Of a DNA stretch of 64,000 nucleotides, positions 28,530 through 62,475 are shown one piece after another (within the stretch, counting starts at the first letter, position 1; the number at the start of each line of letters is the position of its first letter). The stretch comes from a virus, in the IMG/VR virus record IMGVR_UViG_3300042868_008355, positions 1 to 64,000 of that record; one strand, given 5' to 3'. A program made the position numbers and the translations under genes. The notes under the pieces were generated by a model that saw nothing but the letters and a program-made list of their open reading frames with translations, did no database searches and had not been told where the DNA came from.

Positions 28530-28574
28530 CAAAAGTTTTTAATAAAAAACAACACGATTACCAAATTAATACGT

Positions 28575-28582: not shown

Positions 28583-28606
28583 TATAAACTTAAAAACATA
28601 AATAAG

Positions 28607-28771: not shown

Positions 28772-28776
28772 AACAG

Positions 28777-28851: not shown

Positions 28852-28864
28852 CAAAATAGAAATT

Positions 28865-29212: not shown

Positions 29213-29219
29213 TATTTAA
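29213..29219 (+). promoter_or_regulatory. Late-type promoter box (TATTTAA)
   Basis: TATTTAA, 4 nt before ATG 29224. Confidence 0.4.
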
Positions 29220-29223
29220 TAGT

Positions 29224-29943
29224 ATGAAAGGAATACTAACACCAGAAGAAAAACAATACTTAAGAAGAACTGCAAATTATCTTGGTTCTTTAGGAATGAG
29301 AAATGGATACATTGATATTGAAATGGAACAAGATGATGACCGAATTAACTCTAAAGACGTTAATTGGCGTCATGTAACTAAATTTGAAAACAACTATAGT
29401 GCAGATATTCCTGAAGGATTGAAACCCATTTTAAAAAAAGTACTTGAATATGTCGATTCATTAGATAATTTAAATAATGATATTATTGATGACATCAGTC
29501 ACCAAAGAATTGAAATCAATATTAATGGTGAAGATAAGGAGATTACAGTTAGACATGAACTTTATTATTACAGTCGAGATGATGGTCATATGGTTGAATA
29601 CGATTCTGAAGATGATATAGAAAGATTTAACCGATGGATTGACGAAGATTTAGAAGATGTTGAAGTGCCTTCTGACGGTATTTTAACTTTACCTTACAAT
29701 GGTGGTGGTGATTCGGGATATATTGAAAGTTCTTTTGAACCAACTGGTGATGCAGTACCTGCAAGTATTGAAAATTGGTGTTATAGTGAACTTGAAAGTC
29801 ATTTTGGTGGTTGGGAAATAAATGAAGGTTCCGATGGGGTTTTCATATTCAATTTCAACGATTCAACTGTTACTTTGGAACACACATACAATACAGAAGA
29901 AAATCAGACCGATACTCTTTATGAAGAAAGTTTTGACAAGTAA
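29224..29943 (+). CDS. Acidic hypothetical protein
   Basis: 239 residues from ATG 29224 (MKGILTPEEKQYL); an ATG at 29179 lies in the previous gene. Strongly acidic. The C-terminal ~80 residues contain GGGDSGYIESS, ENWCYSELESHFGGWEINEG and DGVFIFNF, resembling a small domain family (DUF6878-like) seen in phage and host proteins. The assignment is tentative and no function is known. Confidence 0.5.
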   Translation: MKGILTPEEKQYLRRTANYLGSLGMRNGYIDIEMEQDDDRINSKDVNWRHVTKFENNYSADIPEGLKPILKKVLEYVDSLDNLNNDIIDDISHQRIEININGEDKEITVRHELYYYSRDDGHMVEYDSEDDIERFNRWIDEDLEDVEVPSDGILTLPYNGGGDSGYIESSFEPTGDAVPASIENWCYSELESHFGGWEINEGSDGVFIFNFNDSTVTLEHTYNTEENQTDTLYEESFDK

Positions 29944-29967
29944 GTTGTATCTTTAAGTAAAATCAAT

Positions 29968-29975
29968 TATATTTG
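29968..29975 (+). promoter_or_regulatory. Host-type promoter for tRNA genes, TATATTTG
   Basis: TATATTTG, 18 nt before tRNA-Leu(TAA). Confidence 0.5.
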
Positions 29976-29993
29976 TACCATAGTAAAATAAAT

Positions 29994-30081
29994 GCTCGGG
30001 TGGTGGAATAGGTAGACACGCCAGACTTAAAATCTTGTGGGCTTTACGCCCGTGCGGGTTCGATTCCCGCTCCGAGTACCA
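29994..30081 (+). tRNA. tRNA-Leu(TAA)
   Basis: Class II. Acceptor GCTCGGG/TCCGAGT, D-arm GTGGTGGAATAGGTAGACAC, anticodon loop CTTAAAA, variable arm GGGC/GCCC, T-arm GCGGG TTCGATT CCCGC, encoded CCA. Confidence 0.93.
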
Positions 30082-30087
30082 AAATAT

Positions 30088-30161
30088 GTCTTCGTAGCTC
30101 AGCTGGATAGAGCAACTGCCTTCTAAGCAGTAGGTCACAGGTTCGAATCCTGTCGGGGATA
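30088..30161 (+). tRNA. tRNA-Arg(TCT)
   Basis: Acceptor GTCTTCG/CGGGGAT (with GU pairs), anticodon stem ACTGC/GCAGT, loop CTTCTAA, T-arm ACAGG TTCGAAT CCTGT. Confidence 0.92.
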
Positions 30162-30277
30162 CAATATATCATATCTTCAGGTACCCGTACCGCAAACGTA
30201 GGGTTAAGTAAGATACAATTTCGTGTTACATTTATGTAAAAGCGGGGAGTAGAATGCCTGTCTGATGTGATATATAT

Positions 30278-30358
30278 GCCTTGGTGGTGGAATGGTAGAC
30301 ACGTATGTCTTAGGAACATATGTCTTATGACGTGAGGGTTCGAGTCCCTCCTAGGGTA
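30278..30358 (+). tRNA. tRNA-Leu(TAG)
   Basis: Class II. Acceptor GCCTTGG/CTAGGGT, Leu-type D-arm, anticodon stem TATGT/ACATA, loop CTTAGGA, T-arm GAGGG TTCGAGT CCCTC. Confidence 0.92.
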
Positions 30359-30360
30359 CA

Positions 30361-30516
30361 ATGAAAATAAACATTTATGCGGTTATTATTCTTTTGGTGA
30401 ATTTTTCGTTTTCTGTATTTGCAATACACAAATCAAATACATATCAAACACCATCAAAAGATAGTATAAATCAAATAGATTCAGTTTTTTCAATAAAAAT
30501 ATTTGACAAAAAATAA
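30361..30516 (+). CDS. 51-residue secreted small protein
   Basis: ATG to TAA directly after tRNA-Leu. MKINIYAVIILLVNFSFSVFA is a good signal peptide; the mature part (about 30 residues) is Ser/Asp/Lys-rich (IHKSNTYQTPSKDSINQID). No family known. One of several small exported proteins of this phage. Confidence 0.5.
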   Translation: MKINIYAVIILLVNFSFSVFAIHKSNTYQTPSKDSINQIDSVFSIKIFDKK

Positions 30517-30530
30517 ACTTTTACTATACT
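30503..30530 (+). promoter_or_regulatory. Sigma70-like promoter
   Basis: TTGACA, 16-nt spacer, TATACT; upstream of the short ORF at 30550, mirroring 26808-26836. Confidence 0.45.
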
Positions 30531-30549
30531 TCAGTATAATTATAATACA

Positions 30550-30651
30550 ATGAGAACAACAATGGTCCATATTTCGTCGTTTAAGCAACAAGAGATTTGT
30601 AGCTGGTATCGCTATGTGGAAAATTGTAGTTCGGAAAATAAGGTAAAATAA
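30550..30651 (+). CDS. Possible 33-residue leader peptide
   Basis: ATG to TAA, MRTTMVHISSFKQQEIC..., followed 25 nt later by a terminator and then a tRNA promoter with boxA. Parallel to the unit at 26844. Translation unproven. Confidence 0.35.
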   Translation: MRTTMVHISSFKQQEICSWYRYVENCSSENKVK

Positions 30652-30675
30652 CAAGTTAGAAATAACAATAAGGTT

Positions 30676-30713
30676 AAACCCCGAACTTCTAAAAAAAGTT
30701 TGGGGTTTTTTTT
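30676..30713 (+). terminator. Intrinsic terminator
   Basis: CCCCGAAC and GTTTGGGG stem, 11-nt loop, nine T. Confidence 0.8.
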
Positions 30714-30745
30714 TACCCGATAGTGCAAGATTAGAAAAAAGTTTT

Positions 30746-30753
30746 TATCTTTG
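30746..30753 (+). promoter_or_regulatory. Host-type promoter for tRNA cluster, TATCTTTG
   Basis: TATCTTTG, 21 nt before the boxA-like site at 30775. Confidence 0.55.
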
Positions 30754-30774
30754 TACCATCAAACAGAATGAGAG

Positions 30775-30786
30775 TGTTCTTTGACA
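30775..30786 (+). promoter_or_regulatory. boxA-like antitermination site
   Basis: TGTTCTTTGACA, nearly identical to the site at 27018, followed by tRNA-Val. Confidence 0.6.
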
Positions 30787-30802
30787 TGTTGGAAACCAAA
30801 AT

Positions 30803-30874
30803 AGTCCTTTAACTCAGCGGTAGAGTTCTTGCCTTACATGCAAGCGGTCGTAGGTTCGAATCCTACAGGGACTA
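30803..30874 (+). tRNA. tRNA-Val(TAC)
   Basis: Acceptor AGTCCTT/AGGGACT, anticodon stem CTTGC/GCAAG, loop CTTACAT, T-arm GTAGG TTCGAAT CCTAC. Confidence 0.93.
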
Positions 30875-30881
30875 CATAAAT

Positions 30882-30953
30882 GGTCGGTTCATCTAGGGGT
30901 CAGGATTCAAGGTTTTCATCCTTGCCACACGGGTTCGAATCCCGTACCGACTA
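30882..30953 (+). tRNA. tRNA-Glu(TTC)
   Basis: Acceptor GGTCGGT/ACCGACT, anticodon stem CAAGG/CCTTG, loop TTTTCAT, T-arm ACGGG TTCGAAT CCCGT. Confidence 0.93.
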
Positions 30954-30964
30954 CAAAAAAAGAT

Positions 30965-30995
30965 TTGGTAGATTGAAATAATCTACTTATCTTTG
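30965..30995 (+). promoter_or_regulatory. Host-type promoter with -33 TTG
   Basis: TTG at 30965 and TATCTTTG at 30988-30995, 20 nt apart, directly upstream of the structured spacer at 31003 and tRNA-Phe. Confidence 0.6.
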
Positions 30996-31002
30996 TAAAA
31001 CA

Positions 31003-31141
31003 TTGATAGTGGTTTTCCCCACCCAACGGATGTCGACAATCCAGGATGGAATCGGAATTCATCACCCTTTCTGCCGAGGCCTCGTAAAACTACGATTAAG
31101 CAGTTAAGATTGGAGCGAGATGGGTACTCCATCACTATCAA
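31003..31141 (+). ncRNA. Candidate structured RNA closed by a 9-bp stem
   Basis: TTGATAGTG (31003-31011) pairs perfectly with CACTATCAA (31133-31141). Inside are hairpins GGAT/ATCC and TCGTA/TACGA. It starts 7 nt after a TATCTTTG promoter and has no ORF. Function unknown; could be a small RNA or a processing element. Confidence 0.35.
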
Positions 31142-31149
31142 CAATATTT

Positions 31150-31222
31150 GGTGTGATAGCTCAGTAGGTAGAGCAGTAGACTGAAAATCTACGTGCCGCA
31201 AGTTCGATTCTTGCTCTCACCA
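31150..31222 (+). tRNA. tRNA-Phe(GAA)
   Basis: Acceptor GGTGTGA/TCTCACC (one T-T mismatch), anticodon stem GTAGA/TCTAC, loop CTGAAAA, T-arm GCAAG TTCGATT CTTGC. Confidence 0.9.
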
Positions 31223-31297
31223 CGGAGTCCTGAAATAACAGGAAACCCCCACTCCCATATGGCAGTCAGTCCGTTAACCTGATGAAGTGGGGTAAAT

Positions 31298-31430
31298 AGT
31301 CAAGTGGACGTAATGCGGGATGGTACCCAAGTCCGAAAAACACCACGGTCCATAACCATTTGGACGCGAGAAGTTATAAGGTTGTCTAATCCGTCTTGAA
31401 CGGTATTCGGTTCGAGTCCGACCTTGACTA
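31298..31430 (+). other. tRNA-like element, 133 nt, unresolved
   Basis: AGTCAAG/CTTGACT acceptor ends pair over 7 bp and a T-arm-like TTCGG TTCGAGT CCGA is present with a CCGT/ACGG variable-arm-like stem, but the molecule is about 45 nt too long and no anticodon arm can be placed. Perhaps a tRNA with an insertion or a decayed gene. Confidence 0.35.
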
Positions 31431-31440
31431 CAAAAAAATT

Positions 31441-31470
31441 TTGGCAGTTTGAAAAATTGTTGTATCTTTG
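31441..31470 (+). promoter_or_regulatory. Host-type promoter with -33 TTG
   Basis: TTTGGCAG with TTG at 31441, TATCTTTG at 31463-31470, 4 nt before ATG 31475. Confidence 0.7.
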
Positions 31471-31474
31471 ACCT

Positions 31475-31732
31475 ATGAAAACGAGAGAGAAACTTTATAA
31501 GAGTGTAAACGGGGAATACCTATATTTGTTTAACTGGGTTGAGGGAGGATTCAACGATGTTTGGGCTCCAAACAAAAAAGAGGCGTATCGCCGAGTGGTG
31601 AATGACCGTAAAGAGTGGGAAGAAAAAAATCCAACTTACTCTAAATTACGACCTGACTACAAATCGATGCGTCGATGTACTTACTCCGAATACGAAGCAC
31701 AGAATCGTATGGGTTGGATGATGAGTATGTAA
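31475..31732 (+). CDS. Small hypothetical protein
   Basis: 85 residues, rich in Trp, Tyr, Lys and Arg (YLFNWVEGGFNDVWAPNKKEAYRRV). No family recognised. Strong leaderless host-type promoter; sits between tRNA genes, so it is probably an early gene with its own transcript. Confidence 0.6.
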   Translation: MKTREKLYKSVNGEYLYLFNWVEGGFNDVWAPNKKEAYRRVVNDRKEWEEKNPTYSKLRPDYKSMRRCTYSEYEAQNRMGWMMSM

Positions 31733-31738
31733 GATACT

Positions 31739-31900
31739 GTTGGTAGAAAATGCGTAGATTGATAAGCGTGGAGAGACGTGACGCAAGGGTACACACTAAG
31801 GACAGGTAGACATTCTTAATTGTATTGTCGTAATTCCCAACTCTCTAATGGTGTGTGAAGTCGTGAGACGGGATTCCTGATAAAGTCAATCACTATCAAC
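31739..31900 (+). ncRNA. Candidate structured RNA
   Basis: GTTGGTAG (31739-31746) pairs with CTATCAAC (31893-31900) with one GU pair, and an inner CACAC/GTGTG stem is present. The 3' strand CACTATCAAC is shared with the element ending at 31141. No ORF. Confidence 0.3.
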
Positions 31901-31906
31901 AAACAT

Positions 31907-31981
31907 GGTGGCTATAGCTCAGTAGGTAGAGCAAAGGTTTGTGGTACCTTGTGTCATGGGTTCGATTCCCATTAGTTACCC
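31907..31981 (+). tRNA. tRNA-His(GTG)
   Basis: Acceptor GGTGGCT/AGTTACC, anticodon stem AAGGT/ACCTT, loop TTGTGGT, T-arm ATGGG TTCGATT CCCAT, discriminator C as expected for His. Confidence 0.9.
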
Positions 31982-31987
31982 AAATAC

Positions 31988-32077
31988 GGAGAGATGGCAG
32001 AGTGGTTGATTGCGTCAGTCTTGAAAACTGAATTACGGGAAACTGTAACGGGGGTTCGAACCCCTCTCTCTCCGCCA
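31988..32077 (+). tRNA. tRNA-Ser(TGA)
   Basis: Class II. Acceptor GGAGAGA/TCTCTCC, anticodon stem TCAGT/ACTGA, loop CTTGAAA, long variable arm, T-arm GGGGG TTCGAAC CCCTC, discriminator G and encoded CCA. Confidence 0.93.
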
Positions 32078-32149
32078 AAGTAAAGAGAACCGTGAGTCCG
32101 CGGATGGAAACAACTACAGGACGAGCATACGTCATACTTTACTTTAATT

Positions 32150-32242
32150 AGTCAGGTTTGGTACAAGGTCGGTTCGAGTCCGATGGCAGGTCATGGATGT
32201 CGGGTAGCTCCCTGTAGAGAGGTTCAATTCCTCTCCTGACTA
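32150..32242 (+). other. tRNA-like element with two T-arm sequences
   Basis: Acceptor AGTCAGG/CCTGACT and a normal 3' T-arm AGAGG TTCAATT CCTCT, but a second T-arm-like TCGG TTCGAGT CCGA sits where the D-arm should be, and no anticodon arm is evident. Looks chimeric or decayed. Confidence 0.35.
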
Positions 32243-32251
32243 CAAAAAAAT

Positions 32252-32282
32252 TTGGCAGATTAAAATATTAGACATATCTTTG
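32252..32282 (+). promoter_or_regulatory. Host-type promoter with -33 TTG
   Basis: TTTGGCAG with TTG at 32252, TATCTTTG at 32275-32282, 4 nt before ATG 32287. Confidence 0.7.
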
Positions 32283-32286
32283 TATT

Positions 32287-32565
32287 ATGAAAAACAAGGA
32301 AAATTTAGAATATTGGTTTTGCAAAATAGGTCCTATTGACAGAAGTGAAATACCTTTTGGTGGTGACGGTCCATTGAGAAGTGCCGTTGAAGATAAGTTT
32401 ATTGATATGTTTGGAGAACAAGCGAAAACCTGTGGTAGTGGTTGGGGATTAAAAGAAGAAATGAAAACAAGATTGGATATCATTTCTTACCTACATATCA
32501 CAGACCCAAGTGGGGAAATGTTAAAACAAATTGATGAAATCTTGAATAAACGACCGATGTTTTAA
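32287..32565 (+). CDS. Small hypothetical protein
   Basis: 92 residues with IPFGGDGPLRSAVEDKFIDMFGE and GSGWGLKEEMKTRLDIISYL, which has the look of a conserved soluble phage protein. No function assigned. Leaderless host-type promoter, between tRNA-like elements. Confidence 0.6.
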   Translation: MKNKENLEYWFCKIGPIDRSEIPFGGDGPLRSAVEDKFIDMFGEQAKTCGSGWGLKEEMKTRLDIISYLHITDPSGEMLKQIDEILNKRPMF

Positions 32566-32573
32566 ATTAAAAT

Positions 32574-32672
32574 AGTCAGGTGGCGGAATGGTAGACGCAA
32601 TAGGTGAAAATACCATACAGATGTTCACCCATCTAATGCAATGGTTTACAGGTTCGAATCCTGTCCTGACTA
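32574..32672 (+). other. Leu-like tRNA element with extra hairpin
   Basis: Acceptor AGTCAGG/CCTGACT, Leu-type D-arm GTGGCGGAATGGTAGACGC, T-arm ACAGG TTCGAAT CCTGT. Between them two hairpins occur (ATaGGT/ACCAT and AGATG/CATCT, the latter with a 6-nt loop TTCACC), so no standard 7-nt anticodon loop can be assigned. Confidence 0.4.
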
Positions 32673-32745
32673 CACGGTTCGGTTCATCACCGAATAGTAT
32701 GCCCAATACGATGAGAAGTGAGGTGATACTTCACATGGGATTTCT

Positions 32746-32826
32746 GATAGAGAAAGGCTCTATCTGGTTTGACTAGCCACGGGGAAGAGCAAAGGGAGTT
32801 AAAGAACAACGTACTCTCATAGTCAA
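32746..32826 (+). other. Structured spacer
   Basis: Perfect stems GATAGAG/CTCTATC (32746-32764) and TTGACTA/TAGTCAA (32769-32826) just before tRNA-Ile. No ORF; possible processing signal or small RNA. Confidence 0.3.
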
Positions 32827-32831
32827 TTTAT

Positions 32832-32903
32832 TGTCACGTAACTCAGCGGTAGAGTTCTTCTCTGATACGGAAGCGGTCGTAGGTTCAAATCCTACCGTGA
32901 CAA
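32832..32903 (+). tRNA. tRNA-Ile(GAT)
   Basis: Acceptor TGTCACG/CGTGACA, anticodon stem CTTCT/GGAAG, loop CTGATAC, T-arm GTAGG TTCAAAT CCTAC, discriminator A. Confidence 0.92.
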
Positions 32904-32909
32904 CACAAT

Positions 32910-32984
32910 GTCTTCGTAGCTCAGCTGGTTTAGAGCACTTCACTTTTAATGAAGGAGTCACAGGTTCGAACCCTGTCGGGGACA
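32910..32984 (+). tRNA. tRNA-Lys(TTT)
   Basis: Acceptor GTCTTCG/CGGGGAC, anticodon stem CTTCA/TGAAG, loop CTTTTAA, T-arm ACAGG TTCGAAC CCTGT. Confidence 0.93.
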
Positions 32985-32990
32985 CTATAA

Positions 32991-33062
32991 GGTCGGTTGG
33001 TCGAGTGGTTTAGGCGGTAGTCTGCAAAACTATCTACACAGGTTCGATTCCTGTACCGACCT
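32991..33062 (+). tRNA. tRNA-Cys(GCA)
   Basis: Acceptor GGTCGGT/ACCGACC, anticodon stem GTAGT/ACTAT, loop CTGCAAA, T-arm ACAGG TTCGATT CCTGT, discriminator T as usual for Cys. Confidence 0.92.
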
Positions 33063-33070
33063 CAATATAC

Positions 33071-33143
33071 ACGTCTGTAGCTCAGTTGGTAGAGCACTGG
33101 TCTCCAAAACCAGGTGTCGGTGGTTCGAGCCCATCCAGTCGTG
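33071..33143 (+). tRNA. tRNA-Trp(CCA)
   Basis: Acceptor ACGTCTG/CAGTCGT (one T-T mismatch), anticodon stem CTGGT/ACCAG, loop CTCCAAA, T-arm GGTGG TTCGAGC CCATC, discriminator G. Confidence 0.9.
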
Positions 33144-33301
33144 CAAAACTAACACAGAATGAATGATACGAGCCACCAAAGTTCGAAAGGAGTCAGGGTG
33201 TTGGTTTAACTTATAGGTTGATTGGGGAAGTCCATAACGTTAACGTGTCAGTAGTTCGTTGTTGTGGGGGAGTTTGAACTGTCATAGTAACGCCAATCGT
33301 A

Positions 33302-33334
33302 AAAACAGATGTCCACTGAACCATCTTCTGTTTT
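33302..33334 (+). other. Hairpin before tRNA-Tyr
   Basis: AAAACAGA and TCTGTTTT form an 8-bp stem 8 nt upstream of tRNA-Tyr, without a T run. Rest of the 33144-33342 spacer has no ORF. Confidence 0.35.
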
Positions 33335-33342
33335 CCTAAATT

Positions 33343-33425
33343 GGGTCAGTTGAGCAATTGGTCGGCTCGCTAGTCTGTAAAACTAGTTCATTTGTGACGT
33401 GTAGGTTCGAATCCTACCTGGCCCA
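33343..33425 (+). tRNA. tRNA-Tyr(GTA)
   Basis: Class II. Acceptor GGGTCAG/CTGGCCC, anticodon stem CTAGT/ACTAG, loop CTGTAAA, T-arm GTAGG TTCGAAT CCTAC, discriminator A. Confidence 0.93.
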
Positions 33426-33432
33426 CTTAAAT

Positions 33433-33505
33433 TGTCCTGTGGTGTAATTGGCAACACGTCTGGTTTTGGTCCAGAAGAGTATAGGTTCGAGACCTGTCGG
33501 GACAA
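33433..33505 (+). tRNA. tRNA-Gln(TTG)
   Basis: Acceptor TGTCCTG/CGGGACA, anticodon stem TCTGG/CCAGA, loop TTTTGGT, T-loop TTCGAGA. Confidence 0.92.
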
Positions 33506-33510
33506 CAATT

Positions 33511-33585
33511 GGTTTTGTGGTGTAACGGAGAGCACATGAAGCTACGGACTTCAGAGTGAGGGTTCGAATCCTTCCAAAACCACCA
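33511..33585 (+). tRNA. tRNA-Arg(ACG)
   Basis: Acceptor GGTTTTG/CAAAACC, anticodon stem TGAAG/CTTCA, loop CTACGGA, T-arm GAGGG TTCGAAT CCTTC, encoded CCA. A34 would need deamination to inosine by host TadA. Confidence 0.92.
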
Positions 33586-33586
33586 T

Positions 33587-33658
33587 GGCGATGTAGTTCA
33601 GTGGTAGAACACTTCTTTCATACGGAAGGGGTCGGTGGTTCGATACCACCCATCGCCA
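33587..33658 (+). tRNA. tRNA-Met(CAT) or tRNA-Ile2(CAT)
   Basis: Acceptor GGCGATG/CATCGCC, anticodon stem CTTCT/GGAAG, loop TTCATAC, T-arm GGTGG TTCGATA CCACC. Not initiator-like. Confidence 0.9.
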
Positions 33659-33664
33659 CTATAT

Positions 33665-33738
33665 TGGAATGTAGCTCAGTTGGTGAGAGCAGTTGTCTTA
33701 TACACAACAGGTCATGGGTTCAACTCCCATCATTCCGA
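33665..33738 (+). tRNA. tRNA-Ile(TAT)
   Basis: Acceptor TGGAATG/CATTCCG, anticodon stem GTTGT/ACAAC, loop CTTATAC, T-arm ATGGG TTCAACT CCCAT, discriminator A. UAU-anticodon Ile tRNAs are uncommon in bacteria. Confidence 0.9.
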
Positions 33739-33743
33739 CAATA

Positions 33744-33831
33744 GGAAGGTTACCCAAGTTGGTGAAGGGGTCAGTTTGCTAAACTGATAGGTCAAGTAAT
33801 TGGCGCGAGGGTTCGAGCCCCTCACCTTCCG
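33744..33831 (+). tRNA. tRNA-Ser(GCT)
   Basis: Class II. Acceptor GGAAGGT/ACCTTCC, anticodon stem TCAGT/ACTGA, loop TTGCTAA, variable arm, T-arm GAGGG TTCGAGC CCCTC, discriminator G. Last tRNA of the array. Confidence 0.93.
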
Positions 33832-33860
33832 CAAAAGTTGACAAAAAAGGATTTAAAACC

Positions 33861-47130: not shown

Positions 47131-47874
47131 ATGAATAATTTTCAAAAAATCCTTAATAGTTTTTCGGTTAAAGAATCTTTAAATCCGAAAATTTGGGAAA
47201 ATCCAAAAAATCCTGACAAGTCGGTTATGATACCAAAGGTCAGAAAGGCTCTTATGCTCATCGCAGAAAAGTTTATTGATTATTTGGGTGATGAGGTTTT
47301 TGTTGAAGATATTCATCTAACAGGTTCATTGGCCAATTACAATTGGTCCGAGTTTTCAGATTTTGATTTACACGTAATTGTTGATTTACAACAATACGAA
47401 AACCAATCAGAACTATATAAGGAACTATTCAATTTAAAAAAACAAGTTTTTAACGATAAACATGATATTCGAATCTTTGGATATGATGTTGAACTATATG
47501 CTCAAGATGTTGAAGAATCTCATTATAGTTCAGGAGTGTATTCCGTTATGAATAATGAGTGGATATCTGAACCAAAAAAATTCAAAAATAATGTTGATAA
47601 AGAAGTCCTAACAAAAAAGATTGAATGTTGGACGGAAAAGATTGATACCGCAATTGATGAGGGTAAAGATTTGGAAAAAATCAAAGAAAAATTAAAAGAC
47701 TATAGAAAGTCAGGATTGGAATCAGATGGTGAATTATCTTATGAAAATCTTGTCTTTAAATTTTTAAGAAGGTCGGGTCATATTGAAAAATTGTTCGATA
47801 CCGCAAATAAAGAAACTGATAAAGAACTGTCCATTGAAAGAACTATTCAAGAATATTCAAATAATTCACATTAA
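47131..47874 (+). CDS. Nucleotidyltransferase-fold protein, putatively packaged
   Basis: 247 residues. Start MNNFQKILNSFSVKE/SLN offers a VKE/S site. Residues ~65-85 read HLTGSLANYNWSEFSDFDLHV: the GS...SDxD pattern of DNA polymerase beta-like nucleotidyltransferases, with the two metal-binding Asp. A third Asp may be in YDVELYAQD. The C-terminal half is helical. It may transfer nucleotides to an RNA or protein of the host soon after entry; substrate unknown. Confidence 0.65.
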   Translation: MNNFQKILNSFSVKESLNPKIWENPKNPDKSVMIPKVRKALMLIAEKFIDYLGDEVFVEDIHLTGSLANYNWSEFSDFDLHVIVDLQQYENQSELYKELFNLKKQVFNDKHDIRIFGYDVELYAQDVEESHYSSGVYSVMNNEWISEPKKFKNNVDKEVLTKKIECWTEKIDTAIDEGKDLEKIKEKLKDYRKSGLESDGELSYENLVFKFLRRSGHIEKLFDTANKETDKELSIERTIQEYSNNSH

Positions 47875-52878: not shown

Positions 52879-54639
52879 GTGAATAAAGAACAACTGATTA
52901 TAGAGGTAACGAAGTGTATGAGGAACACACCTTATGCACTTCGTACTTATTTACAGACATACGATAATACCGTATCAAAATACGTCCCATTAGATTTATT
53001 CCCCGACCAAGTTAGTCTTATAGAAGACTATGATACATACAACGAAAACATTGCGTTAAAGTATCGTCAGGCGGGTGTATCCACAGTAACTGCAGCTTGG
53101 ATATCAAAAAGATTGGTTTTTGCCAAGAAAAACAAACCAGAAAAAATTCTTATTATTGCCAACAAATTGGATACATCTATGGAGATGGCAAATAAGGTTA
53201 GGGGGTTCACAGAACAATGGCCTGAATGGGTTGGTGTTGGATTCTCAAAAGAAAAAAATTCACAACGACATTTTAAATTAACCAACAACTGTGAAGTTAA
53301 AGCCGTGGCTACCTCACGAGATGCCTTGAGGGGTTATACTCCCACCATCCTTGTATTTGACGAGGCGGCGTTTATCGAGGCAGACTCAGACTTCTGGTCA
53401 GCCTGTATGGCTTCACTATCTACGGGTGGTAAGGTAATTGTTGTATCCACACCAAACGGATATGACCCCATCTATTATGAAATCTACGACCAGTCATTAA
53501 GGAACATGAACGATTTCAAAATATCTGAGATGTTTTGGTATCGTGACCCAAGATATACAAAAGATTTGTATATGGTTAAAACTCCTGACTTGGTCCATTT
53601 CTTATTAAACCGAGAAGAATATTCTGACAAAGATGTTATTGACTTATCTATGGAAAATCCATACGAAAGAGACCATACCATTGTAACTGACTATATTGAA
53701 CAAGGATACAAACCATGTTCCGCTTGGTTTGAAAGTATGGTTAAGAAATTAAAGTTTGATAGACGTAAAGTTGCTCAAGAGTTAGAATGTGACTTTTTAG
53801 GTTCGGGTGATAATGTATTCGAATCTGAATTGATGCAAGAAATCTCTAAAAATAGTTTACGTGACCCACAAGCCAAGTTAATGGGAGGTTCACTATGGAT
53901 ATTTAAAGAGCCTGTAAACGGACATAAGTACGTAATGGGTGTCGATGTATCAAGAGGTGACTCCGAAGACTTCTCAAGTATTGAAATTATTGATTTTGAC
54001 ACAAGAGAACAAGTATTGGAATATGTTGCCAAGGTTCCACCAGATGTATTAGCAGAAATTGCTTATAAATGGGGGACAATGTATAATGCTTACTGTGTAA
54101 TTGATATCACGGGAGGTATGGGCATTTCTACCGCAAGAAAATTACAAGAATTAAGTTATCAAGGTGGATTATACGTTGATAATGTTGATACAAGTAATAA
54201 GTGGAAATGGGACCCAAAAATTAACGATAAGATACCAGGTATTAACTTTAACTCAAAAAGGGTTCAGATTATTGCTGCATTTGAAGAAAATGTTAGACAC
54301 GGATTTAAAGTATATTCGAGCAGATTATATAATGAGATGAATACCTTCATTTACATTAATGGAAGACCAGACCACCAAAAAGGACACCATGATGACTGTA
54401 TCATGGGAGTTTCTATGGCATTATATGTCGCTGAAAAATCATTCCAATCTTTAGAAAAGGTTACTAACCACACTAAAGCAATGATTAACTCATGGGCAAC
54501 CAATGTTAATGAGAACAAAAACTCTTCCGAATTCTTTAATCCAATGGTTCCACAGATGGGTAGAGGTAATGGTATGGGTAATCATGGTGAAGCAACTAAA
54601 GCTGATTACCAAAAATACGGATGGCTATTTGGTGGCTGA
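52879..54639 (+). CDS. terL: Large terminase subunit (T4 gp17-like)
   Basis: 586 residues from GTG 52879 (no in-frame ATG nearby). ATPase domain: Walker A KYRQAGVSTVT at residues 61-71, Walker B ILVFDEAAF near 158, coupling motif VVSTPNG. Nuclease domain: VMGVDVSRGDSED, YCVIDITGG and GHHDDCIMG give the RNase H-fold Asp triad. It cuts concatemeric DNA and pumps it into the prohead through the portal encoded next door. Length is close to T4 gp17 (610). Confidence 0.95.
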   Translation: MNKEQLIIEVTKCMRNTPYALRTYLQTYDNTVSKYVPLDLFPDQVSLIEDYDTYNENIALKYRQAGVSTVTAAWISKRLVFAKKNKPEKILIIANKLDTSMEMANKVRGFTEQWPEWVGVGFSKEKNSQRHFKLTNNCEVKAVATSRDALRGYTPTILVFDEAAFIEADSDFWSACMASLSTGGKVIVVSTPNGYDPIYYEIYDQSLRNMNDFKISEMFWYRDPRYTKDLYMVKTPDLVHFLLNREEYSDKDVIDLSMENPYERDHTIVTDYIEQGYKPCSAWFESMVKKLKFDRRKVAQELECDFLGSGDNVFESELMQEISKNSLRDPQAKLMGGSLWIFKEPVNGHKYVMGVDVSRGDSEDFSSIEIIDFDTREQVLEYVAKVPPDVLAEIAYKWGTMYNAYCVIDITGGMGISTARKLQELSYQGGLYVDNVDTSNKWKWDPKINDKIPGINFNSKRVQIIAAFEENVRHGFKVYSSRLYNEMNTFIYINGRPDHQKGHHDDCIMGVSMALYVAEKSFQSLEKVTNHTKAMINSWATNVNENKNSSEFFNPMVPQMGRGNGMGNHGEATKADYQKYGWLFGG

Positions 54640-54679: not shown

Positions 54680-56527
54680 ATGAGCGAACAAAATCTAACG
54701 GTATGGCAGAGGTTATCCCAAACATTCGGGCCAAATTCATTATTGAAACAAGATTATCCGACGTTTAAGTTCGATAAAAAGGAACTCCTACGTACCACAA
54801 ACCGTGATGATTATGAAAGGGAGAAACTCCAAGCTCAACAAACATTTTATTTAACAAATCAATGGGCTAAAGTTGAAAACAACTTATATTCCCAAGCAAT
54901 TTATTATGAACCATCAAGATTGTCTGCCCAATATGACTACGAGTCAATGGAGTATACACCTGAGATTTCTGCGGCATTAGATATCTATTCTGAAGAATCT
55001 ACAACAACAAATGAAGATGGTTTTATTTTACAAATCTATTCTGAATCAAAAAGAATTAAATCTGTATTGGCAGATTTATTTAACAATGCCCTTGATATTA
55101 ACACTAACTTACCGATGTGGACAAGAAACACTTGTAAGTATGGTGATAACTTTGTTTACCTTAAATTAGACCCTGAAAAAGGGATTGTCGGTTGTCAACA
55201 ATTACCAACAATTGAAATTGAACGTCATGAGGTTGGTGTAACTGCCAAAATCACTATTGATATTACACAAGAAAAAGATGAGAACAAAAAGGCTCTTCAC
55301 TTTACTTGGAAAAATAGAAACATGGAATTCCAATCATGGGAGATTGCTCACTTCAGATTATTAGGTGATGACAGAAAACTTCCTTATGGTACATCTATGT
55401 TGGAAAAGGCGAGACGTATTTGGAAACAGTTATTGTTATCAGAAGATGCAATGTTAATTTATCGTACATCAAGAGCACCTGAAAGAAGAATGTTTAAAGT
55501 ATTCGTGGGTAACATGAATGACGATGACGTTGAAGCATACGTAAACCGTGTTGCCAACAAGTTCAAAAGAGAACAAGTTGTGGATTCAAAAACAGGAAAC
55601 GTAGATATGAGATTCAACCAAATGGCTGTTGACCAAGATTATTTTATCCCTGTTCGTGACCCTGCGGCACCAGACCCAATAACAACATTACCTGGAGCAA
55701 CAAACTTATCAGAGATTGCCGATATTGAATATATTCAAAAGAAATTATTAACCGCACTTCGTGTTCCTAAAGCGTTTTTAGGATTTGAAGAAGTTGTTGG
55801 TGATGGTAAAAACTTATCATTACAAGATATTCGTTTTGCTCGTACAATCAACAGAATTCAAAAAAGCATGATTGCCGAGTTAAACAAAATTGCAATCGTT
55901 CACTTATTCTTATTAGGATTTGAAGACGAATTACAAAACTTTACGTTAGGTCTTACTAACCCTTCTACCCAAGCAGATTTATTAAAAATCGACGTATGGA
56001 AAGAAAAAGTATTATTGTATAAAGATTTGGTTGCTGACCCTGGAAACGGTATTCAACCTACATCATCTACATGGGCTAAGAAACACATCTTTGGTTGGTC
56101 TGATGAAGAAATCAGATTGGATTTACAACAACAAAGAATTGAAAGAGCGGTTGGTGAAGAACTTAAAGCAACTCCTACAGTTATTACCAAAACAGGTTTA
56201 TTTGATAATATTGACAAGTTATACGGAAGTACTACAGGTGGTACTGCAACTGCAGCGGCAACCACAGGAGATGAAGATATGGGGGCAGTTCCTTCATTTG
56301 GTGGCGGAGGATTTGAAACCGCACCTGCAGGGGGTGAAGAAGCTCCACCAGCGGCGGAAGAAACTCCACCAGCAGGAGGTGAGGTTACACCTGAATCCAA
56401 AAAAGAAAGAATGAATATTCTTTTAGAAAGTGGATTTGCAAAACAAAACAGATTTTTTAATTTAGACCAAGGTCAAGATTCTTTAGGAGAAATTTCAAAA
56501 GAATTAGATAAGTTGTTAAACTCGTAA
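54680..56527 (+). CDS. Portal protein (T4 gp20-like)
   Basis: 615 residues. Identified by position after terL and by portal-like segments: EYTPEISAALDIYSEE, WTRNTCKYGDNFVYLK, AHFRLLGDDRKLPYGTS, LLLSEDAMLIYRTSRAPERRMF and RVPKAFLGFEE, all typical of T4-type portals. A Gly/Ala/Pro-rich insertion (residues ~515-570) precedes a conserved helical tail. It forms the dodecameric ring at the capsid vertex for DNA entry and tail attachment. Confidence 0.9.
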   Translation: MSEQNLTVWQRLSQTFGPNSLLKQDYPTFKFDKKELLRTTNRDDYEREKLQAQQTFYLTNQWAKVENNLYSQAIYYEPSRLSAQYDYESMEYTPEISAALDIYSEESTTTNEDGFILQIYSESKRIKSVLADLFNNALDINTNLPMWTRNTCKYGDNFVYLKLDPEKGIVGCQQLPTIEIERHEVGVTAKITIDITQEKDENKKALHFTWKNRNMEFQSWEIAHFRLLGDDRKLPYGTSMLEKARRIWKQLLLSEDAMLIYRTSRAPERRMFKVFVGNMNDDDVEAYVNRVANKFKREQVVDSKTGNVDMRFNQMAVDQDYFIPVRDPAAPDPITTLPGATNLSEIADIEYIQKKLLTALRVPKAFLGFEEVVGDGKNLSLQDIRFARTINRIQKSMIAELNKIAIVHLFLLGFEDELQNFTLGLTNPSTQADLLKIDVWKEKVLLYKDLVADPGNGIQPTSSTWAKKHIFGWSDEEIRLDLQQQRIERAVGEELKATPTVITKTGLFDNIDKLYGSTTGGTATAAATTGDEDMGAVPSFGGGGFETAPAGGEEAPPAAEETPPAGGEVTPESKKERMNILLESGFAKQNRFFNLDQGQDSLGEISKELDKLLNS

Positions 56528-56550: not shown

Positions 56551-57252
56551 ATGACTTTCGGACAAATTAAATCCATAATTGAAAACAATTTATTAGAATC
56601 CTACAAAAATGAGCAGGAGTTTAAAAAATCGTTAAAAGAGTTCAAACACAATGTTTTGAGCAATAAGAATATGTCAAAATTATATTCTTTATACGACCAA
56701 TTAACAACACCTCAAGGATTAACTGAAAATGACGCCAAAGACTTTCTTGATGAAGGTGTTAGTTTAATTCAAAAACTATTACCGTCAATTAAAACTCCAA
56801 AAACTGTAACTGAAAACGTTGAGAACAAATATTCTGACGTTGATGTTCTTGTATACACAAACAAGTTAGATTTAATGGAGAGATTAAAATCTAAGAAAAA
56901 TTTAATTCAAACATTAACGTTAGACAAAAAATCAACCATAAAGGAAACAATCAACATTCCTTTAAAATCTATGATTTCTATTGCTAATCACACTTTGAAT
57001 AACTATATTGATAATCTTGACGAAACCGCAAAAAAAGAATTCATTCAATTAATGTCTGAAGATACTTCATTACTTAAAGAAAAATTTGAAACTTTAAGAG
57101 AGAGTACAATAACTAAATTGAACACTCTTTTAGAAAACGAAAACGAGTTTGAAATTAAGACAAAATTGTCAGAAACAATCGATAGATTGAAAGTCGAAAA
57201 ATTTGACCAGCTTAATTTCCTTAAGTTAAAAGGCTTAGAAGAATCAATCTAA
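56551..57252 (+). CDS. Putative prohead core or packaged protein
   Basis: 233 residues from ATG 56551 (an in-frame TTG precedes it). MTFGQIKSIIE/NNLLES offers an IIE/N site. Lys/Glu-rich, predicted almost all helical. Its place between portal and protease corresponds to gp67/gp68-type core genes of T4, though no sequence similarity can be claimed. Its end overlaps the antisense bS21 gene by 9 bp. Confidence 0.55.
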   Translation: MTFGQIKSIIENNLLESYKNEQEFKKSLKEFKHNVLSNKNMSKLYSLYDQLTTPQGLTENDAKDFLDEGVSLIQKLLPSIKTPKTVTENVENKYSDVDVLVYTNKLDLMERLKSKKNLIQTLTLDKKSTIKETINIPLKSMISIANHTLNNYIDNLDETAKKEFIQLMSEDTSLLKEKFETLRESTITKLNTLLENENEFEIKTKLSETIDRLKVEKFDQLNFLKLKGLEESI

Positions 57253-57432
57253 TTTAGATTTCATCTTTTGAACGTAAGACGCTTTCAACTTTTGTTGTCT
57301 TCTTTCCACCGATTTTTTAACAAATTCTTTCTTACCAAACAACATCTGATTTTGTTTAGTTTTAATTACTTTTGACTTTAATGTCTTTAGGGCTTTTTCT
57401 ATCCCATCTTTTTTTACATCTACTTTTAACAT
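57244..57432 (-). CDS. rpsU: Ribosomal protein bS21
   Basis: 62 residues from ATG 57432 (MLKVDVKKDG); a longer frame upstream is not supported. KKDGIEKALKTLKSKVIKTK, KKEFVKKSVERRQQKLKASY and a basic tail follow the bS21 pattern. bS21 sits near the anti-Shine-Dalgarno region of the 30S subunit; in Bacteroidetes it helps hide that sequence. A phage copy could replace host bS21 on ribosomes. A near-consensus box (GATATTTG) lies just upstream. Antisense to the head operon. Confidence 0.85.
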   Translation of the reverse strand: MLKVDVKKDGIEKALKTLKSKVIKTKQNQMLFGKKEFVKKSVERRQQKLKASYVQKMKSKLD

Positions 57433-57530
57433 ATAATACAAATATCTTAATTTTTCTGAAAGTTTTTGACAATCCCTATAAAATTTGTTATTTTTTAACA
57501 AACAAATAAACATTGACAACATGAAACTTA

Positions 57531-57962
57531 ATGAAAAAAGGAAAAAGTGTAAAGTTAAATCTCTACAACCCAATTAAATCTGTATACGGAACGGTAGATT
57601 CAAAAAATTTGAAATCGTTATACATAAACATACAATCATGGGTAACCCCAAAATTTGAACACGACAATTGGAATCGAATTGTCTGTAATTTAAGTAGAGA
57701 TATCAAACATTCAGTCTATAACTCCATAAACCACGAATTATTCAAAGAACAGAGTATAGTTGATTTAGACCTAAGAACAAGTGGAATTTCACACGGAAAA
57801 AAATCCTTTTTAAATTTAGAGGTTAATTTATATACCAACAATGAAATGGATTTTAAATCTCAAGAAATTAAAAATTCAGTTAAAACAATTATCAAAAGTA
57901 TAGTAAAAGAGAATGTAATCCAAAACAAATACTTCGATTTTTCACCATCAAAAAACGATTAA
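57531..57962 (+). CDS. Hypothetical protein
   Basis: 143 residues. NLYNPIKSVYGTVDSKNLKSLYINIQSWVTPK, then NRIVCNLSRDIKHSVY; the overall look is of a soluble alpha/beta protein. No family recognised. It sits between the bS21 and protease genes on the head-gene strand. Confidence 0.5.
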   Translation: MKKGKSVKLNLYNPIKSVYGTVDSKNLKSLYINIQSWVTPKFEHDNWNRIVCNLSRDIKHSVYNSINHELFKEQSIVDLDLRTSGISHGKKSFLNLEVNLYTNNEMDFKSQEIKNSVKTIIKSIVKENVIQNKYFDFSPSKND

Positions 57963-58007: not shown

Positions 58008-58730
58008 ATGAAACAATTAAGAATTTTAGAAGCAAGTGAAGTAGGTCATGGAATATTGGTTGAAACCGATGCAGGTTGGATATCACCAAAAGATGTTCGT
58101 AACGCCGAGATGTTAAGAGAAGCAAAAGAATTAGATTATAGAAATCCTTTTGAATTTTATGCGGTATTACAGAAATACGATACACCAAATAGAAATGGAA
58201 GATTTTATCCTGAGAGAATATTAAAGAGAGAAGCTGAGAACTATAAAAAGGCAATTGCTAAAGGTTTGTCTACTTCAGAACTTAATCACCCTGAATCATC
58301 TTTAATTGACTTGGATAGAGTATCCCATATTATCACAGACATATGGTGGGATAAAAATATCTTGATGGGTAAACTTAAATTGTTAACATCACCAGGATTT
58401 CATGAAAGAGGTATTGTTTCTACTAAAGGAGACCAAGCGGCTAACTTAATGAGACAAGGTGTTACTATGGGAGTTTCTTCAAGAGGGGTAGGTTCTTTGA
58501 AAAAAGTTGGTGAAAGAAATGAAGTACAGGATGATTTCGAATTAATCTGTTTTGACTTGGTATCATCTCCATCTACACCAGGAGCTTACTTATTTGGTAA
58601 TCCTAATGATAGAGACAAGTATGAAGAAAACTTGGAAGAAGAAAAAAAATACAAATCACCTGAAAATTCGGAATTTCAATCTAAAGGAGTTGACTTAATG
58701 AGAAAATTAACCGATTATTTGGGAAAATAA
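58008..58730 (+). CDS. Prohead serine protease (T4 gp21-like)
   Basis: 240 residues. STSELNHPESS holds the catalytic His and GVTMGVSSRGVG the catalytic Ser of the herpesvirus/T4-type assembly protease; the third residue is probably Asp near FDLVSSPSTPGA. It degrades the scaffold and trims capsid proteins after (I/L)-x-E. Its own start, RILE/ASEV, could be a self-cleavage site. Expected to cut the capsid protein at E60/A61 and the many [ILFV]xE-tagged proteins listed here. Confidence 0.9.
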   Translation: MKQLRILEASEVGHGILVETDAGWISPKDVRNAEMLREAKELDYRNPFEFYAVLQKYDTPNRNGRFYPERILKREAENYKKAIAKGLSTSELNHPESSLIDLDRVSHIITDIWWDKNILMGKLKLLTSPGFHERGIVSTKGDQAANLMRQGVTMGVSSRGVGSLKKVGERNEVQDDFELICFDLVSSPSTPGAYLFGNPNDRDKYEENLEEEKKYKSPENSEFQSKGVDLMRKLTDYLGK

Positions 58731-59079: not shown

Positions 59080-60630
59080 ATGAAAGAAAACAAATTAGTT
59101 CAAGAGGCTCTTATTCAAATGAAACAAGTTGAAGATGTCATAGCCGAAAATGCAAAAGGAATACTTGCTTCTACAATGAAGGAGGAAATCAACCAATTAG
59201 TAAAAGAATCTCTTTCCGAACAGGATGATGAGGAGATTGATGTAGATGCAGACGTTGATACGGATGCTGATAACGATGAAATGGAAATGGACGTTGATAT
59301 GGAAATGGGTTCTGATGAAGAAGACATGGATATGGACATGGATATGGACATGGATTCAGAAGAAAGTCCAATAGATTTAACTGACGCTTCTGACGAGGAA
59401 ATCTTGAAAGTATTCAAAGCTATGGGTGAAGATGACGGTATCATTGTTAAAAAAGATGGTGAAAACGTTCATTTATCCGATGATGATGCTGACGTAGAAT
59501 ATCTTGTTAAGCTTGGTGAGTCTGAAGAAGACGAATTAATGCAAGAAGATGATATGAATTACGACGAACAAGACGAATCAGTTGATGACGTTATTAACGC
59601 TATTTTCTCTGATAGTGGTGACGTATCAGATGTTGATTCATCAGATATGGAAGATTTCGATGATGAAGAAGTTGTTTATGAAATCACATTAGATGATGAA
59701 GACGACATGATGGAAGAAGAATCTGACGACATGATGGAAGAAGACGACATGATGGAAGAAGAATCTGACGAAATGATGGAAGAAGACGACATGGACGATT
59801 TAACAAATGAAACTTACAAACCTAAGGGTGTTGGAATTGGCTCAGGTCCTAAATTTTCTTACAAAGATAAAGCTAAAGGCGGATTCGATGAAAAGAAAAA
59901 ACAAGGTCCTAAATCAGTAGGTACTGGTAAAGCAAAATTCGAATACAAGAAAGGTGCAAATATGGAAGGAAAATCTAAAGTTGTTAAAGCAGAAACTAAA
60001 GAAGGTGATTACGGAATGAATAAGGGTGACAAATCTAAAACTATGAAAGGTAAAGAAGATTTCACCACTAAAAAAGGTATGACAAATTCTAAAGGAGAAA
60101 AAGCTTTTGAAAAAGTAGAAACTAAAGAAGCTGCTAGAACATACGGAATGGGTTCCAAAGAAGGTAGAGGATTAAGAAAGGGCATCACAAATAACAGAAA
60201 CTATAACTATAGTAATAGTGGTGTTAAAGTTGAATCTACCCAAGAAGAAGTTAGAATGTTGAGAGAAAAAAATGAAGAGTACAGAAAAGCATTGAATGTA
60301 TTTAGAGAAAAACTTAACGAAGTTGCAATCTTTAATTCAAACTTGGCTTACGCTACAAGATTGTTCACAGAACACTCAACTACTAAAAAAGAAAAATTAA
60401 ATATCCTAAGAAGATTTGATGATGTTGAAACTTTAAAAGAATCTAAAAATCTTTATAAGTCAATCAAAGACGAATTATCTCAGGTAGATACAAAATCAAT
60501 TAATGAATCAGTAGGTCAAAAATTAAACAAAACTGTTACTACAGGTTCATCAACAACATTGATTGAATCAAAAACTTATGAAAATCCACAATTCTTAAGA
60601 ATGAAGGATTTAATGGGTAAAATTGGTTAA
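59080..60630 (+). CDS. Acidic prohead core scaffold (T4 gp22-like)
   Basis: 516 residues. First ~250 residues are extremely acidic with Met (DMDMDMDMD and MMEEESDDMMEEDD repeats), the middle is Lys/Gly-rich, and the C-terminal ~140 residues form a coiled-coil-like segment (EVRMLREKNEEYRKALNVFR) typical of T4-type core proteins. VIAE/N near the start may be a cleavage site. Position between protease and major capsid genes is that of T4 gene 22. It would guide prohead assembly and then be degraded. Confidence 0.8.
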   Translation: MKENKLVQEALIQMKQVEDVIAENAKGILASTMKEEINQLVKESLSEQDDEEIDVDADVDTDADNDEMEMDVDMEMGSDEEDMDMDMDMDMDSEESPIDLTDASDEEILKVFKAMGEDDGIIVKKDGENVHLSDDDADVEYLVKLGESEEDELMQEDDMNYDEQDESVDDVINAIFSDSGDVSDVDSSDMEDFDDEEVVYEITLDDEDDMMEEESDDMMEEDDMMEEESDEMMEEDDMDDLTNETYKPKGVGIGSGPKFSYKDKAKGGFDEKKKQGPKSVGTGKAKFEYKKGANMEGKSKVVKAETKEGDYGMNKGDKSKTMKGKEDFTTKKGMTNSKGEKAFEKVETKEAARTYGMGSKEGRGLRKGITNNRNYNYSNSGVKVESTQEEVRMLREKNEEYRKALNVFREKLNEVAIFNSNLAYATRLFTEHSTTKKEKLNILRRFDDVETLKESKNLYKSIKDELSQVDTKSINESVGQKLNKTVTTGSSTTLIESKTYENPQFLRMKDLMGKIG

Positions 60631-60672: not shown

Positions 60673-62475
60673 ATGGGAGCATTATTAGAATCAGGTCTTG
60701 TAGGTAACATCGGTTTAAAACACCTTAAAGTTATCAAAGAAGACACAATCAACAAATGGGACAAATTAGGATTCTTAGAGGGTCTTAAAGGTCACATGAG
60801 AGAAAACGTAGCACAATTATACGAAAACCAAGCATCGTACTTGATTAACGAAGCATCATCTACATCTGATACAGGTGCATTTGAAACAGTTGTTTTCCCA
60901 ATTGTAAGACGTGTATTCTCTAAATTATTAGCGAACGACATCGTTTCTGTACAAGCTATGAACTTACCTATCGGTAAATTATTCTACTTCGTACCTAACA
61001 TTCAGGCTTACACTGATGAATCAAATGCGAATACTGGTATTCACTACGCACCTTATGGTTCACCAAACGCTGCGGCAGGACAAACACCAAACAGTGGTTA
61101 TGACTACAATAACACTAAAGACCTTTACGATAGATTCTACGAAGGTAACGAACCAGCTTTGGACCCTCCAGGATTGTTCGACTATTCTAAAGGACAATTT
61201 TCTGCAATAACTGCAAACGTAACAACAGTTTCATGGTTAGCTGACCAATTAGTTCCTTCAGCTTATACTGAGGATAATTACAGAAAAGTGTTAATCGTTA
61301 TGTCAGGTTTTGCATCTGATGGAGCAGGTAAATTAATCGGTCCTGATGGTCAACCAATGGACAACGAAGCGTTCTTATCTGATTTAACTATTTATGGTGC
61401 TACTGGTAACGCTTTCACATCAGGTAACACAACTAACCCTTACTTATTTAGAGTTGTAACTCAAAGATATGGTAAAGGTATCGTACAATATGGTAATAAC
61501 AACGAAACGTTAGTATTCCCTAACAGTAAAACTGATGGTGGTCAATATGACAACTTATGTGATACTGAAGGTAAAATTTACTTAGAAGTTGATTTACAAG
61601 TACCAGTTTGTATCACTTGTGGTGGTTCTATGGACGGTTATACAGGTTCAACATTTGCATCTGATACAACAGTTAACGACGCATTTACTGCTAAATACAG
61701 AATCTACAAAAACTTAGAGTTTGAAGATAGAATCGGTGAGGTATCTTTCGACCTTATGTCAGTTACAGTTTCTGTAACAGAAAGAAAATTAAGAGCTCAA
61801 TGGTCACCAGAAATGGCTCAAGACGTTGCAGCATTCCACAACATCGACGCTGAAGCTGAATTAACAGCTTTATTGTCTGAGCAAGTTGCGGCTGAAATCG
61901 ACCGTGAAATCTTAAGAGATTTACGTAAAGGTGCGGCTTGGAACTTACGTTGGGATTACAACGGATGGAAGCGTCTTGGTTCAAGTGCAGTTCCTTACAC
62001 TCAAAAAGACTGGAATCAAACATTGATTACAGCTATCAACCAAATTTCGGCTCAAATCCACAAATCTACCTTAAGAGGTGGAGCTAACTGGATTGTTGTT
62101 TCTTCTGAAATCAGTGCTATCTTTGATGACTTGGAATACTTCCACGTATCAAACGCGGCTCCTGAGCAAGACCAATACAACATGGGTATTGAAAGAGTTG
62201 GTACATTGGCAGGTCGTTACCAAGTGTATAGAGACCCTTACTTCCCACCAAACCAAGTGTTGTTGGGTCACAAAGGTACATCTTTACTTGACACAGGTTA
62301 CATCTACGCACCGTATGTACCTCTACAATTAACACCTACAATGTACAATCCATTCAACTTCACACCTATCAAAGGTATTATGACACGTTACGCTAAGAAA
62401 ATGGTTAACAACCGTTTCTACGGACGTATCACAGTTGATGGAGTAAGAACATTCGACTTAAGAGAATTGAGATAA
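60673..62475 (+). CDS. Major capsid protein (T4 gp23-like)
   Basis: 600 residues. N-terminal ~60 residues (propeptide) end in SYLINE/ASSTSD: the L-I-N-E60/A61 site matches the T4 gp21 cleavage rule, like gp23 cut at E65/A66. The body has HK97-fold features: VQAMNLPIGKLFYF, an insertion around residues 330-350, FEDRIGEVSFDLMSVTVSVTERKLRAQWS and a C-terminal VNNRFYGRITVDGV. Strong codon bias and position after the scaffold support the call. Confidence 0.95.
   Translation: MGALLESGLVGNIGLKHLKVIKEDTINKWDKLGFLEGLKGHMRENVAQLYENQASYLINEASSTSDTGAFETVVFPIVRRVFSKLLANDIVSVQAMNLPIGKLFYFVPNIQAYTDESNANTGIHYAPYGSPNAAAGQTPNSGYDYNNTKDLYDRFYEGNEPALDPPGLFDYSKGQFSAITANVTTVSWLADQLVPSAYTEDNYRKVLIVMSGFASDGAGKLIGPDGQPMDNEAFLSDLTIYGATGNAFTSGNTTNPYLFRVVTQRYGKGIVQYGNNNETLVFPNSKTDGGQYDNLCDTEGKIYLEVDLQVPVCITCGGSMDGYTGSTFASDTTVNDAFTAKYRIYKNLEFEDRIGEVSFDLMSVTVSVTERKLRAQWSPEMAQDVAAFHNIDAEAELTALLSEQVAAEIDREILRDLRKGAAWNLRWDYNGWKRLGSSAVPYTQKDWNQTLITAINQISAQIHKSTLRGGANWIVVSSEISAIFDDLEYFHVSNAAPEQDQYNMGIERVGTLAGRYQVYRDPYFPPNQVLLGHKGTSLLDTGYIYAPYVPLQLTPTMYNPFNFTPIKGIMTRYAKKMVNNRFYGRITVDGVRTFDLRELR

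Follow-up and report, generated by a model that had tools for sequence, protein, structure and literature searches.

A gene for a homologue of ribosomal protein bS21 lies among the head genes of a phage contig, IMG/VR virus record IMGVR_UViG_3300042868_008355, of which positions 1 to 64,000 (64,000 nucleotides, hereafter the window) were analysed; the whole record comprises 90,935 bases and holds a single bS21 copy. On balance, we think that the phage protein is probably incorporated into host 30S subunits, where it would hold the anti-Shine-Dalgarno (ASD) sequence masked for phage mRNAs lacking a Shine-Dalgarno (SD) sequence, while its own gene stands outside the feedback that governs the host gene. 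The observations behind this reading are the homology, the placement, the residue that latches the ASD, the absence of an SD, a promoter-like box at the start codon, and an SD-poor genome.

The gene (57244-57432, reverse strand) runs from ATG to TAA and encodes 62 amino acids (MLKVDVKKDGIEKALKTLKSKVIKTKQNQMLFGKKEFVKKSVERRQQKLKASYVQKMKSKLD), with boundaries exactly as in the initial annotation, which had called it a clear bS21 homologue. This description holds: the product matches the Pfam family Ribosomal_S21 (PF01165) over the whole domain (profile positions 1-54 of 55) with 32.5 bits against a curated cut-off of 27 (E 7e-8), which places it in the family, and the nearest PDB sequence is bS21 of the Flavobacterium johnsoniae 70S ribosome (7jil chain z, E 7e-6). 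The score against the NCBIfam equivalog TIGR00030 is below its cut-off (16.1 versus 28.95 bits), so the protein is divergent; homology stands, but naming it as an equivalog is unsupported. PHROGs gave no bS21 match for the phage gene. An AlphaFold2 model (pLDDT 81, pTM 0.39) has helices at residues 11-23, 26-34 and 40-61, and a Foldseek search of the PDB with it returned nothing significant, an outcome not unexpected for a helical protein that is small and open. A chance open reading frame is ruled out by the Pfam match, by conservation at 118 loci and by purifying selection (dN/dS ~0.03-0.24 in pairs with unsaturated dS). A longer frame of 109 amino acids with a TTG start (57244-57573) is likewise ruled out, because conservation begins at the ATG at 57432 and a -7 box lies inside the extension.

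The surrounding head genes are T4-like and all point rightward. On the forward strand lie the terminase large subunit (52879-54639; PHROG 2; start GTG at 52879 or ATG at 52918), the portal protein (54680-56527; PHROG 213), a hypothetical gene convergent with bS21 (56551-57252; alternative TTG start at 56536), a divergent neighbor of 143 amino acids (57531-57962; no Pfam or PHROG match), the prohead (head maturation) protease (58008-58730; PHROG 207) and the major head protein, MCP (60673-62475; PHROG 138). The divergent hypothetical gene is 98 nt from bS21 and is, judged by its position, probably the "bS21_CN" of Chen et al. (2022). The initial annotation had placed bS21 antisense inside the head operon. 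It is indeed on the strand opposite to the late head genes, but it is antisense to no gene: it occupies an intergenic gap, and only the 3' end of the convergent gene overlaps it, by 9 nt. Two scans of viral contigs yielded 118 distinct viral loci with bS21, where the neighbors, at each locus that contains them, keep the same order on the opposite strand (upstream hypothetical gene, 118/118; portal, 110/110; divergent gene, 115/115; protease, 111/111); the MCP, too, is on the strand opposite to bS21 in all 71 related loci that hold it. Between protease and MCP, 59080-60630 encodes a very acidic, repeat-rich product (DMDMDMD and MMEED runs) that matches no family and whose position resembles that of a scaffold. 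A protein with a nucleotidyltransferase domain (PF01909) is encoded at 47131-47874, shortly before the head region.

The same architecture, together with expression of the gene late in infection, is known from 47 Bacteroidetes phage genomes (Chen et al., 2022; PMC9723584). The gene, its placement, the aromatic residue and the late expression are thus already published, and the contig joins that phage group. The initial annotation was right that phage bS21 genes are known, although it missed this published system itself, as well as the absence of the autoregulatory SD treated below.

The aromatic residue involved in ASD sequestration in Bacteroidota is present as Y53 (Tyr54 in F. johnsoniae numbering), and this aromatic latch is kept in 117/117 phage copies. 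In a tree of 132 proteins the phage bS21s group as a single clade (100/100), whose long stem adjoins Bacteroidota sequences; it is built on 64 columns, and the exact sister group is not resolved. A bS21 homologue of Bacteroidota descent that has retained the ASD-masking aromatic residue is therefore supported by the sequence. Two SD-less host bS21 copies, L255 (G111) and L269 (G061), branch next to the phage clade, and some Bacteroidota chromosomes carry two or three bS21 genes (genomes G045, G096, G104, G111, G126 and G148).

The central part of the protein has been remodeled. When 49 distinct phage proteins were compared with 116 distinct host proteins, the block from T17 to F37 (columns 17-37) was nearly fixed in phages (TLKSKVIKTKQNQ-LF-KKEF; RYKRKFDKTGTVRQLRARTAF in the F. 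johnsoniae host) and missing from all 116 host sequences. Within it lies a phage-specific segment, L18-K19-S20-K21-V22-I23-K24-T25-K26-Q27-N28 of the 62-residue protein; all 117 phage copies have a KTKQN-type motif, against none of 149 hosts, and Gly9 is lost by a one-residue deletion in most phage copies. As far as our search extended, a phage-only segment as such is new beside the four divergent positions that Chen et al. (2022) reported in the same region. These features bear on the proposal of those authors that the phage protein takes the place of host bS21 in ribosomes and that its remodeled part biases them toward phage over host mRNAs late in infection (PMC9723584). The near-fixation of the block, the Gly9 deletion and the phage-only motif all agree with it, as does the divergent N-terminal helix, which they place at the mRNA-binding site (PMC9723584). 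The same segment counts against the supply of bS21 free from host feedback, as pure replenishment would not need it. However, the mRNAs of the head genes and of the host differ in no distinguishing sequence feature, both being SD-less and apparently leadered, and the conserved segment may instead serve binding, assembly or avoidance of host proteases. We regard this strong rival as possible but somewhat doubtful as the main explanation; it is compatible with feedback-free supply, and both can hold.

A role outside the ribosome, for example as a basic peptide that binds RNA or DNA inside the head, would fit the invariable position among head genes and the very basic character of the protein. 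Phage copies retain the latch residue of the ribosomal protein and most of the bS21 C-terminus, and we consider such a role extremely improbable.

The preferred reading, supply outside host feedback, draws on the leader of the gene. In hosts, autoregulation of rpsU works by way of an extended SD that ribosomes lacking bS21 read (McNutt et al., 2023; PMC9976891), a study in which phage bS21 appears as speculation only. An extended SD such as GAGAGGAGGTG precedes the rpsU start in all 79 Flavobacterium-like host loci (<= -13 kcal/mol), with SD-ASD energies in Flavobacterium of -18 to -22 kcal/mol, mostly about -21. Of 70 hosts sampled from the whole phylum, 42 reach the same threshold, but none of the 117 phage copies does; these have 46 distinct leaders between them, the best at -6.4 kcal/mol; the gene on this contig has -2.0 kcal/mol. 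Energies were calculated by ViennaRNA with one ASD sequence, a bias that works against the host-phage contrast because hosts with a changed ASD are underrated. Since 20 of the 70 diverse hosts lie above -8 kcal/mol, some host bS21 genes are SD-less too; absence of the SD is thus no phage mark by itself, and its loss outside phages counts against the feedback-free reading. In Chen et al. (2022; PMC9723584), a term search for promoters, leaders, the rpsU SD and autoregulation gave nothing, and no literature on phage bS21 leaders was found in a search that left out preprints and most subscription journals. As far as that search goes, the lack of the autoregulatory SD in phage bS21 genes is a new, if modest, addition.

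The promoter may leave little room for such an element. A predicted -7 box, GATATTTG (57439-57446, reverse strand), with one mismatch to TAnnTTTG, ends 6 nt before the ATG; from this motif, transcription would start at 57434 and give a 2-nt leader (AU) with no room for an SD. A TATTTG core resembling the sigma-A-like -7 box ends 6-8 nt before the ATG in 94 of 118 phage copies, and because the F. johnsoniae -7 box ends at -5 (PMC6847099), leaders of 2-4 nt are predicted. A promoter almost on the start codon is the second modest novelty, and like the leader it is a motif-based prediction; the box, moreover, carries G at -12, where hosts have T, which counts against the feedback-free reading. A pure host-type promoter was accepted only in part: the bS21 box, GATATTTGTATTAT, is also similar to GATATTTATATTAA, the late motif at 66535, and a sub-clade (L172, L178, L179, L180, L182, L183, L188 and L199) has in its place a TATATTTATATC motif ~18-26 nt upstream. 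In an alignment of 29 non-redundant intergenic regions, a conserved block, ATTGTCAAAAA on the reverse strand (TTTTTGACAAT on the forward strand; 57463-57473), lies between the two divergent genes and is possibly an upstream promoter element. An inverted repeat in the same region (TTTGTTA-N5-TAACAAA, 57484-57502), largely conserved in the main clade, may serve the divergent gene as an operator or as part of its promoter.

The initial annotation had further claimed that leaderless or SD-poor mRNAs are abundant in this phage, and both parts of that claim are borne out. TAnnTTTG stands exactly 4 nt before the ATG of 11-12 genes on the contig, where ~0.1 would be expected for that one position; the forward-strand genes start at 2340, 8058, 25319, 25839, 31475, 32287, 33873 and 42274, and those on the reverse strand are listed at 13986, 16263, 19522 and 37436. 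From this spacing, strictly leaderless mRNAs are predicted. SD sequences of <= -7 kcal/mol precede 4 of 110 phage starts, compared with 14 in mock regions; each of the three phages tested has fewer strong SD-like sequences at its gene starts than mock regions have, and no start comes to <= -11 kcal/mol, so the phage is as SD-poor as its hosts. Two of the three phages make abundant use of the leaderless-type spacing (TAHHTTTG-N4-ATG), a pattern that is also new to the extent of our search: relative G006 has 9 such genes and relative G005 one. None was found in the host Flavobacterium loci scanned, where boxes cluster 17-28 nt upstream, a sample that is not independent because neighbors are shared. 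The pattern agrees with leaderless mRNAs, which are uncommon in the hosts; leaders of <= 10 nt account for 13% in F. johnsoniae (PMC6847099).

The head genes starting at 54680, 56551, 58008 and 59080 do not have this spacing; a TATTTAT motif precedes them by 14-29 nt, and they are probably leadered. The motif recurs 12-29 nt before these and other genes and probably acts as a late promoter of the phage; it is similar to TATAAATA, the T4 late box, in reverse complement.

It had been suggested on first reading that phage bS21 tunes start-site choice toward such leaderless or SD-poor mRNAs. The SD-poor half of this idea accords with the retained aromatic ASD residue and the depletion of SD sequences. 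A bias of ribosomes toward leaderless mRNAs specifically is another matter: two of the three phages show an excess of leaderless-type starts, the sampled host loci have none, and ~5.5% of mRNAs are leaderless in F. psychrophilum, but the head genes adjacent to bS21 are of the other type, and relative G005 has bS21 yet one leaderless start. Moreover, leaderless mRNAs start on 70S ribosomes, for which the ASD region is not needed. A link of bS21 to leaderless initiation is unproven, and as an explanation of the gene we find it very unlikely.

The sequence of events that we infer under feedback-free supply would be as follows. An ancestor of these Bacteroidota myophages would have taken bS21 from a Bacteroidota host. 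Made during infection, the phage protein would take up the position of bS21 on 30S subunits of the host and leave the 16S rRNA 3' tail, which holds the ASD, tucked away, the state best suited to starts on SD-less mRNAs on Bacteroidota ribosomes. In keeping with this, ribosomes without bS21 or its C-terminus initiate more poorly on SD-less mRNAs (PMC9976891). Because the extended SD is absent and the predicted promoter lies almost on the start codon, the phage may supply bS21 whatever the state of the ribosomes. Ribosomes filled with the phage protein would in turn cause host rpsU to be turned down by the host's own feedback loop, and late in infection ribosomes would be held in the ASD-masked state. 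Ribosome joining, masking by the phage protein, rpsU repression and the benefit to the phage are all inferred.

Incorporation need not support translation. Pelagiphage bS21 is incorporated into Escherichia coli ribosomes (Mizuno et al., 2019; PMC6375957), a finding that favors feedback-free supply, as does the late expression of such phage genes (PMC9723584), but these ribosomes then show about 5% activity in vitro (PMC6375957). The low activity speaks against feedback-free supply and could suggest instead that phage bS21 lowers host ribosome activity and hence shuts off host translation. That assay crossed phyla, however, and expression of phage bS21 is strong and late, together with the head genes (PMC9723584), when the phage itself needs translation; we judge a shut-off function highly improbable.

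A broader view combines several of these elements: a bS21 with a fixed segment and free from feedback may build a distinct class of 30S subunits as part of a phage-specialized initiation program, alongside leaderless non-structural and SD-less leadered late mRNAs. We put this forward tentatively and think it rather unlikely; if true, host ribosomes are rebuilt for phage transcripts. It is still unsettled whether bacteria or their viruses make specialized ribosomes, and among viral ribosomal proteins none is as common as phage bS21. The absence of the SD in every phage copy studied allows a sharp and cheap test in F. johnsoniae of the published hypothesis, namely whether an SD-dependent rpsU reporter falls silent when phage bS21 is present, and the fixed phage segment marks the residues to swap.

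Among known systems, no cultured relative that could serve as a model was found in the phage collection, which offered huge uncultured phages only. Those (LR756501-LR756504 and LR745206) have genomes of 630-735 kb and encode bS21 homologues with 44-47% identity, a similarity that is only distant; by terminase large subunit, the nearest cultured Bacteroidota phages are the Flavobacterium "immuto" phages (25% identity). Pelagiphage HTVC008M also encodes a bS21 of host descent, the one tested for ribosome incorporation in E. coli (PMC6375957); it infects Pelagibacter, of another phylum, and a separate acquisition is likely. Host Flavobacterium rpsU (PMC9976891) shares the protein family and the aromatic latch, and K40, S42, R46, K51, A52 and Q56 are largely common to both, but its extended SD, at about -20 kcal/mol, has no counterpart in the phage genes, and its KTG-type turn (KTGTVRQL) has become KTKQNQ-L in phages, Gly9 being deleted in most phage copies. 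Closest are the freshwater Bacteroidetes bS21 phages of clades a-e (PMC9723584), in which bS21 likewise lies on the reverse strand, flanked by two hypothetical genes in the region of terminase, portal, protease and MCP. They also share a Bacteroidota-like bS21 with an aromatic Tyr54 position and an N-terminal helix that departs from that of hosts, as well as many tRNAs (Chen et al., 2022). The gene itself shows no essential difference from theirs; the tRNA genes number 5-25 in the published phages and 26 here (26441-33832), jointly covering all 20 amino acids.
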